Assembly: GCA_958295955.1 (NCBI GenBank)
Contig: OY282420.1
Location: forward strand, 1,936,435-2,000,434
Source of the DNA: an uncultured Bryobacterales bacterium
GTDB taxonomy: Bacteria; Acidobacteriota; Terriglobia; Bryobacterales; UBA6623
Length of the DNA stretch: 64,000 bases
Reading direction: 5' to 3'
Shown: positions 20,724 through 32,787 of the stretch, one piece after another
Numbering within the stretch: position 1 is the stretch's first letter
How the letters are laid out: every line of letters starts with the position of its first letter
Position numbers and translations under genes: made by a program
Notes under the pieces: model-generated
The model's input: only the letters and a program-made list of their open reading frames with translations
What the model was told of the DNA's origin: nothing
The model's database searches: none

Positions 20724-20799
20724 GCCTAGGTAGCTCAGGTGGTAGAGCGCGGCCCTGAAAAGGCCGGCGTCGGCGGTTCAACTCCGTCCCTAGGCACCA
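20724..20799 (+). tRNA. tRNA-Phe (anticodon GAA), CCA encoded
   Basis: All arms fold by eye. Acceptor GCCTAGG/CCTAGGC; D stem GCTC/GAGC; anticodon stem CGGCC/GGCCG with loop CTGAAAA, anticodon GAA at 20757-20759; T stem GGCGG/CCGTC with loop TTCAACT. The discriminator is A and CCA is encoded at 20797-20799. A run of six T at 20831-20836 after CCCTGCGGG may be a weak terminator. No integrase or att-like duplication was seen next to it. Confidence 0.95.
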
Positions 20800-28014: not shown

Positions 28015-29394
28015 TCAGGCCGTCAGTTCCTCCAGCCGCTTCAGGCTCTGCTTGTAATAGGCCATGCCCTTCCACAGCAGGACGGTGGAAACCGTATGCG
28101 CAACCAGCGTCAGCGACAGCAGCGAATAACGCACGCCCTCGACCCCGTAGTTCTGCTCGCTGAACACGTAGTCGGTGAGCGCGCCGGTCAGCAGCGGGCC
28201 GACGCCCAAGCCGATAAAGTTCACGATGAGCAGGTAGATGGCCGAAGCCTGCCCGCGCATGTTGTTGGGCATGATTTCCTGCATCGCGGCAGGCGCGACC
28301 CCGTGCGGCATCGACGACGTATAGACCGAACCGACCAAAAACGCCATGGACACCCAGGCATTGCCTACCAACGGATAAACGATGCCGAACGGAAACCAGA
28401 TCCACGAGGCGATGAATCCGATGCGCATCTTGGCGTCGCTGCTGCCTCTCCGCCTCAGGATGTCGGCGAACCAGCCGCCGGTAAAAATGCCCAGCGACCC
28501 GGCGACGAACACGACCGTACCGTAAATCAAACCGAACTGGGCGGCGTCCCATTCATGCACCCGCTTGAACATCGACGGCACCCAGGCGCCGGTGCCGTAG
28601 TTCGAAAACGACAGCATGGCGAAACCCAGGTTGTGGCAGAACATCGTCTTCCAGTTCAGTCGAAAATAGGCCGCGACCTGCGAGAACGGCACGGCGATCG
28701 ACCCTTTGCCCACGCTCGACCGCAGCAGCCCGCGGCGCGCGGGCTCCTTGACCGTCAGCAGCAGAACGGGAAGCATCAGCAGACCGGGCAAGCCGACCAT
28801 GAGGAAGACCTTTTGCCAGGGCGCCACCTCGCCCAAAACAGGCAAATGCCAGGGCAAGGTCTTCCTGACATAATCGACCGCGGGCCCGCCGATCAGGTAT
28901 GCGGCTCCCGCGCCGAAGTAGATGCCCATCGTGTAGAAACCGATGGCCGTTCCGATCCGTTCTTTGCGAAAACAGTCGGCGATGATCGAGTAAGCGCTGG
29001 GAGAAAGCGTCGCCTCGCCGATGCCGACGCCCACCCGCAGCAGCGCCATCTGAACGAAATTGCGGGCAAAGCCGCATCCCGCGGTGAGCAGGCTCCACAC
29101 CGTCAGGCCGAAAGCGATCAAGCCCTTGCGCCCGCGGCTGTCGGCCAAGCGGCCGAAGAGCACGCCGAACAGCGCATAACAAACGCCGAAGGCCGGCCCC
29201 ATCAAAACGCCGGCCTGCCAGTCGTACTCGAGATCGAGTCCTTCCTTGAGATCGTCCACCATCAAGCTCAGAATCTGACGGTCGGTGAACGAAAAGATGT
29301 AGATGACCATCAATACCGAAACGATGTACCAGCAGTAACGTTCCGGGGGATAGGGCTGCTCCGCGGGCGGCGGCGCCTCTGCATGGTCGGCCAT
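28015..29394 (-). CDS. Major facilitator superfamily transporter, Spinster-like
   Basis: A 459-residue protein with 12 predicted membrane segments. The N-terminal half has FSFTDRQILSLMVDDLKEGL and the loop 2-3 motif FGRLADSRGRKGLIAFGLTV, followed by RVGVGIGEATLSPSAYSIIA, typical of the Spns/spinster and hexuronate-like MFS group. The central loop (LTVKEPARRGLL) separates the two six-helix bundles. Substrates of bacterial members are mostly unknown and may include organic acids or lipids. It converges with the ADC-like gene (8 bp between stops) and lies downstream of the deaminase gene on the same strand. Confidence 0.88.
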   Translation of the reverse strand: MADHAEAPPPAEQPYPPERYCWYIVSVLMVIYIFSFTDRQILSLMVDDLKEGLDLEYDWQAGVLMGPAFGVCYALFGVLFGRLADSRGRKGLIAFGLTVWSLLTAGCGFARNFVQMALLRVGVGIGEATLSPSAYSIIADCFRKERIGTAIGFYTMGIYFGAGAAYLIGGPAVDYVRKTLPWHLPVLGEVAPWQKVFLMVGLPGLLMLPVLLLTVKEPARRGLLRSSVGKGSIAVPFSQVAAYFRLNWKTMFCHNLGFAMLSFSNYGTGAWVPSMFKRVHEWDAAQFGLIYGTVVFVAGSLGIFTGGWFADILRRRGSSDAKMRIGFIASWIWFPFGIVYPLVGNAWVSMAFLVGSVYTSSMPHGVAPAAMQEIMPNNMRGQASAIYLLIVNFIGLGVGPLLTGALTDYVFSEQNYGVEGVRYSLLSLTLVAHTVSTVLLWKGMAYYKQSLKRLEELTA

Positions 29395-29439
29395 AAGCGC
29401 GGTGCAAGGGTAACACAGCCGGCGCCGCGGGGGCGGCGC

Positions 29440-30441
29440 TTAGCTCAGGTGGATCTGCCGCACTTTTACGCCGGCCTCCGCCAGCAAGCCTCGGGCCACT
29501 TCATTCAGCGGGTAGTCCAGGTTGTAGGCCACTTCCTCGATGCCCGCGTTGATGATGATCTTCGTGCAGATCAGGCAGGGCGAAAACGTCGTGTAAAGCG
29601 TGGCGCCCCTCACGCCGATGCCGTGATACGCGGCCTGGACGATGGCGTTTTCTTCCGCGTGGGAGCAGAGACAGTCGCCCAGGGCGGTTCCGCTGTCGGC
29701 GAACGAATTGCAACGCGGACAGCCGCCTTCATTGCAGTTCTTCACGCCGCGGGGCGTGCCGTTGTAACCGGTCGAGATAATCCGCCGATCCTTGACGATG
29801 ACCGCCGCGACCTTGCGCTTCATGCAGTTCGACCGCAGCGTCGCGATCCTGGCAATCTGCATGAAGTATTCGTCCCAGTCGGGGCGCTTCACCTGCATCA
29901 GCCAACCGCCGGCGATGCTGTCGATGTTCGCTTGCAACTCGGCGACCGAGCCGGCGTTCACGATCGTTTCGTCCGCCTTGCGCCAAGTCGCGCGCAACTG
30001 CTGATGCGCCGCGCCGCCGCCCTCCATCTCGCGTTCTTCCTGCTCGACGAATTCCGCGAACGAAGCGGGGGCGCGCTCGCCGCCGCGGGCGCAAACGCGC
30101 TCGAACCGCACTGCGCGCGGCGCGTCGAGATGCAGCAGCCGGAACGCCCCCGTCTCGCGCAGAGACTCGACTTCATACGGACTGCGAATCGAGTCGATCA
30201 CATAATGCCGGTCGGACCGCAGCTTGCGTTTGATGCGCTCGGCCAGCACCGCCGGGCCGAATTCGGCGCGCAGGCGGTTTCCCTGCTGAATCAGATTCTC
30301 CCGATTCGGCTCCAGCTTCAAACGGGCCGACTCTTCGCGGATTTCATCCGAAAGCGAATGGAATTCGAACCCCTTCTTGCGCAGGTGATCCGCGGCGGCG
30401 GTCTTACCCGACCCGTTTGCGCCCGTCAGTCCAATGATCAT
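29440..30441 (-). CDS. Deoxycytidylate deaminase with N-terminal P-loop kinase-like domain
   Basis: A 333-residue two-domain protein. Residues 1-180 form a nucleoside-kinase-like P-loop domain with an intact Walker A, GANGSGKT (7-14). Residues 186-333 are a dCMP deaminase: KRPDWDEYFMQIARIATLRS, STGYNGTPRG, the catalytic HAEEN (261-265) and PCLIC (288-292). Extra cysteines C236, C241, C244, C257 and C259 suggest a second zinc site. The layout and the deaminase sequence closely resemble yeast Dcd1 (RPSWDSYFM, NCFNGGCPRCN, CLCLHAEENA, from memory), except that yeast has lost the P-loop. Phage-defence dCTP deaminases (AvcD type) also join a P-loop domain to a deaminase. A housekeeping dUMP supply role or an antiviral role are both possible. 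Confidence 0.88.
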   Translation of the reverse strand: MIIGLTGANGSGKTAAADHLRKKGFEFHSLSDEIREESARLKLEPNRENLIQQGNRLRAEFGPAVLAERIKRKLRSDRHYVIDSIRSPYEVESLRETGAFRLLHLDAPRAVRFERVCARGGERAPASFAEFVEQEEREMEGGGAAHQQLRATWRKADETIVNAGSVAELQANIDSIAGGWLMQVKRPDWDEYFMQIARIATLRSNCMKRKVAAVIVKDRRIISTGYNGTPRGVKNCNEGGCPRCNSFADSGTALGDCLCSHAEENAIVQAAYHGIGVRGATLYTTFSPCLICTKIIINAGIEEVAYNLDYPLNEVARGLLAEAGVKVRQIHLS

Positions 30442-30729
30442 GTGCAGCCGATCTTCACATGGTACGTCAGCGGCAAGCCCGCGCCCCGCCGCGGAAAGCC
30501 CGGCGCCGTCCGGCGCAGCACAATTTCAGACGCCGCCTTGAAAAACACGCGAAACGAGCTGCGAGTCATGCTAGTTTGGGATGAAACGGTTATCACGGCG
30601 TTTGCAGACCGCGATACAGGCTTTTTACGGCAGCGTTCGGTCGACCTCCGTTGGTCGGGCCGCTATTCCGCCAAGCAGCGTACTGGAGCAGGGGAATCCC
30701 AAGACGGGTCGACTCCGCCGTAGGTTTTT
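30442..30729. other. Intergenic region between the deaminase gene and hppA
   Basis: The 288-bp gap between divergent genes holds no recognised gene, riboswitch or convincing promoter. It includes a T-rich patch just before the hppA ATG and no clear SD. Codon-like openness on the plus strand here is a high-GC artefact. Confidence 0.4.

Positions 30730-32787
<2,058 letters not shown>

Follow-up and report, generated by a model that had tools for sequence, protein, structure and literature searches.

What a P-loop domain does when it is joined to a dCMP deaminase, and whether such a protein serves nucleotide metabolism or phage defence, is the question raised by a gene on the minus strand of the window, the 64,000-nucleotide stretch of DNA from an uncultured Bryobacterales bacterium that was analysed here. 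The gene occupies positions 29440-30441, an open frame with exactly these bounds from ATG to stop, and encodes a protein of 333 aa in which a nucleoside-monophosphate (NMP)-kinase-like N-terminal part is followed by a C-terminal dCMP deaminase. Our preferred reading, to which we assign a probability of about 0.65, is a housekeeping bifunctional enzyme that combines dCMP deaminase with a (d)CMP kinase replacing the CMP kinase Cmk (TIGR00017).

Architecture and conservation of the fused protein

Pfam matches on the 333-aa protein covered residues 3-124 (AAA_18, E 2e-10) and residues 188-306 (dCMP_cyt_deam_1, E 4e-25), and the Walker A motif GANGSGKT is found at residues 7-14 (30400-30423; minus strand, as for all features of this gene). 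These results bore out the preliminary description, made from the letters of the DNA, which had claimed a P-loop domain joined to a deaminase with the P-loop intact. Full-length conservation at 49-74% identity in dozens of genomes shows that the fused frame is not a product of chance, and its AF2 model reached a pLDDT of 87.9 and a pTM of 0.75. An 875-aa frame on the plus strand across 28096-30723, antisense to the fused gene and to an MFS neighbour, is probably a high-GC artefact.

The deaminase half (residues 186-333; 29443-29886) scored 88.2 bits against PF00383, for which the gathering score is 25, and residues 185-333 of the AF2 model matched dCMP deaminase structures with Z-scores between 17 and 21 (20.7 for the S. 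mutans enzyme, 2hvw). Both in fold and in sequence its neighbours are dCMP deaminases; against the model for ComEB-type dCMP deaminases, TIGR02571, the score was 113.9 bits and thus below the cut-off of 219.45. Residue conservation was read from 45 aligned homologues representing many phyla, in which H261 and E263 of the catalytic H-A-E motif (29653-29661) were invariant, together with C289 and C292 of the zinc-ligand segment C-L-I-C (29566-29577), part of the motif P288-C289-x-x-C292. A further set of cysteines, C236, C241, C244, C257 and C259 (29665-29736), was likewise invariant and probably forms a structural zinc site. The fold and the H-A-E and P-C-x-x-C motifs are shared with the unfused dCMP deaminases of S. 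mutans (2hvw), T4 (1vq2), human (DCTD, 2w4l) and S-TIM5 (4p9c), all of which are without a kinase domain, and we predict with high confidence that the C-terminal half acts as a dCMP deaminase. An unfused deaminase with the cysteine motif NCNEGGCPRC, as in the fused protein, was also observed on a 318-kb contig of a viral collection (L164:2468-3028), which is possibly that of a giant virus.

The kinase domain (residues 1-182; 29896-30441) adopts an NMP-kinase fold in the AF2 model (residues 1-181), with Sulfolobus SSO1041 as the top structural match (3lw7; Z 22.6, 1.8 Å over 166 residues) and weaker matches, at Z of about 15, to UMP/CMP kinase and to CMP-bound mycobacterial CMK. SSO1041, of the adenylate-kinase-related UPF0200 type (3lw7, 3h0k), is the nearest solved relative at 25% identity and has the S/D, R and D..R...E positions in common with the kinase half; unlike the latter, it is a stand-alone archaeal protein with AMP in the crystal, and a search for an established function of SSO1041 returned none. 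The residues of the kinase half that are invariant in the 45 homologues comprise G7, G12 and K13 of Walker A, S29, D32, R58, S84, R86, E90, the LID arginines R112, R115 and R119 (30085-30108), Q147 and N162. The segment SLSDEIR (residues 29-35; 30337-30357) is predicted to bind the NMP, and its S29, L30, S31, D32 and R35 are at least 90% conserved in fused and unfused kinases alike. In the Walker-B-like segment D-S-I-R-x-P-x-E (residues 83-90; 30172-30195), which is predicted to bind the acceptor as well, S84, R86 and E90 are invariant and D83 is at least 90% conserved among fused kinases, while D83, R86 and E90 each reach at least 90% among the unfused ones. E90 was considered as a cytosine-specifying residue and dropped, the identical Glu being present in SSO1041, which was crystallised with AMP. 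The 333-aa protein gave no match to the Cmk model TIGR00017 and 17.3 bits against the archaeal (d)CMP kinase model TIGR02173, below its cut-off of 102.1. We propose that the kinase half works like a CMP kinase from outside these two families, its predicted reaction being like that of Cmk and its sequence family a different one.

Distribution of the fused gene, the kinase and Cmk

In the family of the window, a full-length orthologue was found in 15 of 18 genomes (67-74% identity among the others), the kinase half only in one, and no match in two genomes that are 74% and 93% complete; here and below, gene absences are the outcome of genome searches. Fused proteins of about 330 aa occur in at least ten bacterial and archaeal phyla. 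By the names in record titles, the bacterial carriers belong to Acidobacteriota, Omnitrophota, 'Deltaproteobacteria', Elusimicrobia/Elusimicrobiota, Nitrospirae, Gemmatimonadetes/Gemmatimonadota, Myxococcota and Sumerlaeota, and the archaeal (DPANN) carriers are Micrarchaeota, Diapherotrites and a Woesearchaeon. A recent fusion with an unrelated P-loop domain, the case that the preliminary description had held against its own interpretation, is not what these searches returned: the fusion is common to many phyla, DPANN archaea included. In other Acidobacteriota the kinase is encoded as a separate gene, which in about 16 genomes directly adjoins a deaminase gene, with small overlaps and with either the kinase first (e.g. 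L143-L152) or the deaminase first (L153-L157). The deaminases beside an unfused kinase are of the dCMP-deaminase type.

Across 199 Acidobacteriota genomes, the kinase, whether fused, beside a deaminase gene or alone, was present without Cmk in 69 and Cmk without the kinase in 118; both were found in none and neither in 12, several of which are incomplete or come from families whose other members have one. The distribution of the kinase is complementary to that of known CMP kinases, with Cmk in 0 of the 69 kinase genomes, a count in which phylogeny is ignored, as it is in the naive Fisher value of 2e-41. Families were uniform in this respect, 31 having the kinase, 34 having Cmk and none being mixed. 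Cmk was found in 0 of 16 searched genomes of the window's own family (f1) and in 7 of 7 genomes of another family of the same order (f3); the two genomes of a further family (f2; 81% and 64% complete) were both without a full-length Cmk match, and the Cmk search gave a signal in 14 of 14 control genomes. Two more families of CMP kinase, TIGR02173 and Cytidylate_kin2 (PF13189), each scored over cut-off in 0 of 8 genomes of the own family. None of TIGR00017, TIGR02173 and PF13189 exceeded its cut-off in 35 of 45 tested Acidobacteriota carriers of the kinase, these three models defining the CMP kinase searches; a PF13189 protein was present in about 10 of the 45.

In other phyla, 32 of 38 bacteria with the fused gene (38 of the 62 source genomes being bacterial by record title) were without Cmk, a count in which some absences may be gaps, as completeness was not given for the 62 genomes. 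The fused gene and Cmk were found together in six bacteria, four Gemmatimonadota and two Omnitrophota, and TIGR02173 scored over cut-off in two Micrarchaeota genomes and one Auribacterota genome among the fused-gene carriers. Since f1 and f3 differ inside one order and the pattern recurs outside the phylum, it comprises more than one contrast. The exclusion is moreover specific to Cmk, because the kinase coexists with the true dCTP deaminase Dcd in 31 genomes. A literature search, mainly of non-subscription papers, returned no description of a CMP kinase-dCMP deaminase fusion or of Cmk loss in Acidobacteria.

The family member that retains the kinase half only (G002) encodes it as a 182-aa gene (L173:4898-5443) that is oriented divergently to hppA, the arrangement also seen in the window; the deaminase half is gone, and this kinase groups with the fused kinases of the family with a support of 98. 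Dcd is present and Cmk absent in this genome; the deaminase half is thus missing, and the kinase half kept, where another enzyme covers dUMP supply. The kinase was presumably retained for the phosphorylation of CMP and dCMP.

For the supply of dUMP and its further use, the host genome of the window encodes a ThyX-type protein of 488 aa and a 168-aa frame with dUTPase motifs; the search for Dcd gave no match over cut-off in this genome. The ThyX-type protein (L171:269-1732, minus strand) contains two Thy1 matches in one frame, and this doubled form recurs across the order. Within the order, a genome encodes either Dcd or a gene of the dCMP-deaminase type, only G025 having both; six f3 genomes (G030, G036, G044, G046, G047 and G053) have neither over cut-off. 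In these six genomes we observed a protein of 375-428 aa that matches Dcd once or twice below cut-off. Beyond the order, dUMP has a further source besides the fused gene, since Dcd coexists with it in 20 of 22 genomes, and Dcd was over cut-off in 18 of 37 genomes of other groups. Exclusivity towards dCTP deaminase, which holds in the window's order except for G025, fails across the phylum and was rejected as a general rule; the phylum-wide coexistence agrees with the report that dCMP and dCTP deaminases are not mutually exclusive (PMC10733785).

Proposed function and competing explanations

The domain architecture, the conservation of the active sites, the exclusion of Cmk and the kinase-only orthologue are outcomes of the computation; from here on we infer the identity of the substrates, catalysis by the kinase half, its reversibility and any channelling. 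The N-terminal half would be an active NMP kinase for CMP and dCMP, standing in for the Cmk that is absent from the host, and the C-terminal half would convert dCMP to dUMP, feeding the ThyX of a host that has dUTPase and is without dCTP deaminase. The protein would thereby sit at a branch point from which dCMP proceeds either to dCTP or to dUMP and dTTP, with both fates held in one protein. NMP kinases are reversible, so dCDP may also serve as the point of entry. Phosphorylation of CMP and dCMP by the kinase half is probable in view of the correlation with Cmk, the conserved catalytic residues and the fold. A housekeeping role had been one of the options in the preliminary description and is supported, whereas the apparent replacement of Cmk by the kinase half had not been foreseen there.

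The P-loop domain might instead be a nucleotide sensor, in which binding of an NTP or dNTP would tune a housekeeping dCMP deaminase without any transfer of phosphate. dCMP deaminases are classically regulated by dCTP and dTTP, the fold matches included S. mutans dCMP deaminase in complex with dTTP, and a deaminase is kept beside a degenerate N-terminal domain both in a protein from a viral collection (L163, described below) and in a provisional yeast sequence. However, the complete set of NMP-kinase residues is invariant, the same residues are found where the kinase stands alone or is encoded separately, G002 keeps the kinase after the loss of the deaminase half, and regulation alone would not predict exclusivity towards Cmk; we consider such a sensor unlikely. 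Exclusivity also weighs against the possibility that the domain phosphorylates a different acceptor (dTMP/dUMP, dephospho-CoA or a broad range of dNMPs) and that the absence of Cmk is a coincidence of lineage. This would accommodate the weak matches to a phage dNMP kinase (phrog_139), a thymidylate kinase (phrog_2107) and dephospho-CoA kinase, as well as the binding of AMP by SSO1041, yet it is made improbable by the perfect exclusion of Cmk in one phylum, the strong Cmk deficit in others and the genomic pairing of the kinase with a dCMP-type deaminase.

The preferred reading, a bifunctional housekeeping enzyme, also has to be set against a role in phage defence by nucleotide depletion, an option raised earlier for this protein on account of anti-phage dCTP deaminases such as AvcD. 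The latter resemble the fused protein in layout, with a deaminase behind an N-terminal kinase-like domain that is homologous to that of the fused protein; hhalign aligned the fused protein to an AvcD-type protein of an E. coli plasmid along both domains, and the PADLOC dCTPase model scored 197 bits on it. The curated model for anti-phage dCTP deaminases, NF041025, however, reached 149.4 bits (residues 1-236) against a cut-off of 400. AvcD differs further in its length (about 500 aa), its inserts, an extension at its C-terminus, its accessory nature and its P-loop, which is altered in all three AvcD-type proteins that were read (GAIGSGVKT, YPLGTDRE and SPVGIRHE). Genuine NF041025 proteins are rare and separate, being found in 2 of 61 relatives (L133 in G003, 451 bits; L134 in G056, 425 bits), and G003 holds its AvcD-type gene in addition to the fused housekeeping gene. 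The P-loops of L133 and L134 are without the GK[ST] signature.

An accessory, defence-type distribution is not seen for the fused gene, which is a core gene (15 of the family's 18 genomes) with hppA beside it in related loci. This divergent neighbour (30730-32787, plus strand; PF03030) encodes a membrane H+-pyrophosphatase, serves as a marker of the locus rather than as part of the enzyme, and adjoins the fused gene in Bryobacterales loci and the kinase-only gene in G002. The genes around the fused gene in the window are metabolic. The sole tRNA gene in the window is that of tRNA-Phe(GAA) at 20724-20799 (plus strand).

AvcD-type deaminases are inhibited by RNA (PMC10511110), and an inhibitory RNA had been suggested for the 288 bp (30442-30729) that separate the fused gene from the divergent hppA. 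No sign of it was found there: an Rfam search returned no match upstream of the fused gene and one sub-threshold match inside hppA, the region contains no notable repeats, and the upstream sequences of six relatives, compared by eye, showed no obvious conservation. AvcD-type identity was rejected on the score of 149 against 400 bits, the core distribution and the conserved hppA locus, and we regard a role of the fused protein in nucleotide-depletion defence as highly improbable. It looks like a core enzyme of thymidine supply rather than a phage-defence protein, and defence libraries can evidently assign substantial, sub-threshold scores to an apparent core metabolic enzyme.

Relation to fungal Dcd1 and AvcD

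The two-part layout and the deaminase motif NCxxGGCPRCN ... CLCxHAEENA are shared with fungal Dcd1, for which we used a provisional S. cerevisiae sequence (300 residues, probably incomplete). In hhalign this sequence aligned to the fused protein with an E-value of 9e-49 and 37% identity, mostly over the deaminase half, and it is plausible, judged on this sequence, that the fused deaminase is of the same subtype as yeast Dcd1. The N-terminal part of the yeast protein we take to be without Walker A and the other kinase residues. The provisional sequence entered the deaminase tree as a single sequence on a long branch, so that its placement is unreliable, and viral contigs searched with it gave only a weak match, to its N-terminal part.

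In the deaminase tree, the branches of which are long, the fused forms cluster apart from the adjacent-gene and AvcD-type deaminases, although only 43% of bootstrap trees contain a branch that separates them from all other sequences. The tree favours an independent origin of the fused and adjacent-gene pairings of kinase and deaminase, a single clade of both not being rejected (AU p 0.095). Fused enzymes of this kind are plausible ancestors of fungal Dcd1 and AvcD. A more far-reaching scenario would make the bifunctional (d)CMP kinase-dCMP deaminase ancestral and a widespread replacement of Cmk, with a kinase that works partly in reverse (dCDP to dCMP, passed to the deaminase), and would derive from it both Dcd1, by decay of the kinase, and AvcD, by its conversion to regulation or sensing; taken as a whole, we consider this rather unlikely.

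If the fused protein does combine a (d)CMP kinase with a dCMP deaminase, the missing CMP kinase of many Acidobacteriota and of several uncultivated phyla would be given a named gene, an orphan NMP-kinase family near UPF0200 would gain a function, and the unexplained N-terminal domains of the fungal dCMP deaminase and of AvcD-type enzymes would have a simple origin. A protein encoded on an 11-kb contig of a viral collection (L163:456-1313) has an intact deaminase and a shortened N-terminal domain, in which Walker A is absent and the kinase motifs are lost, and may thus parallel what is said of fungal Dcd1.
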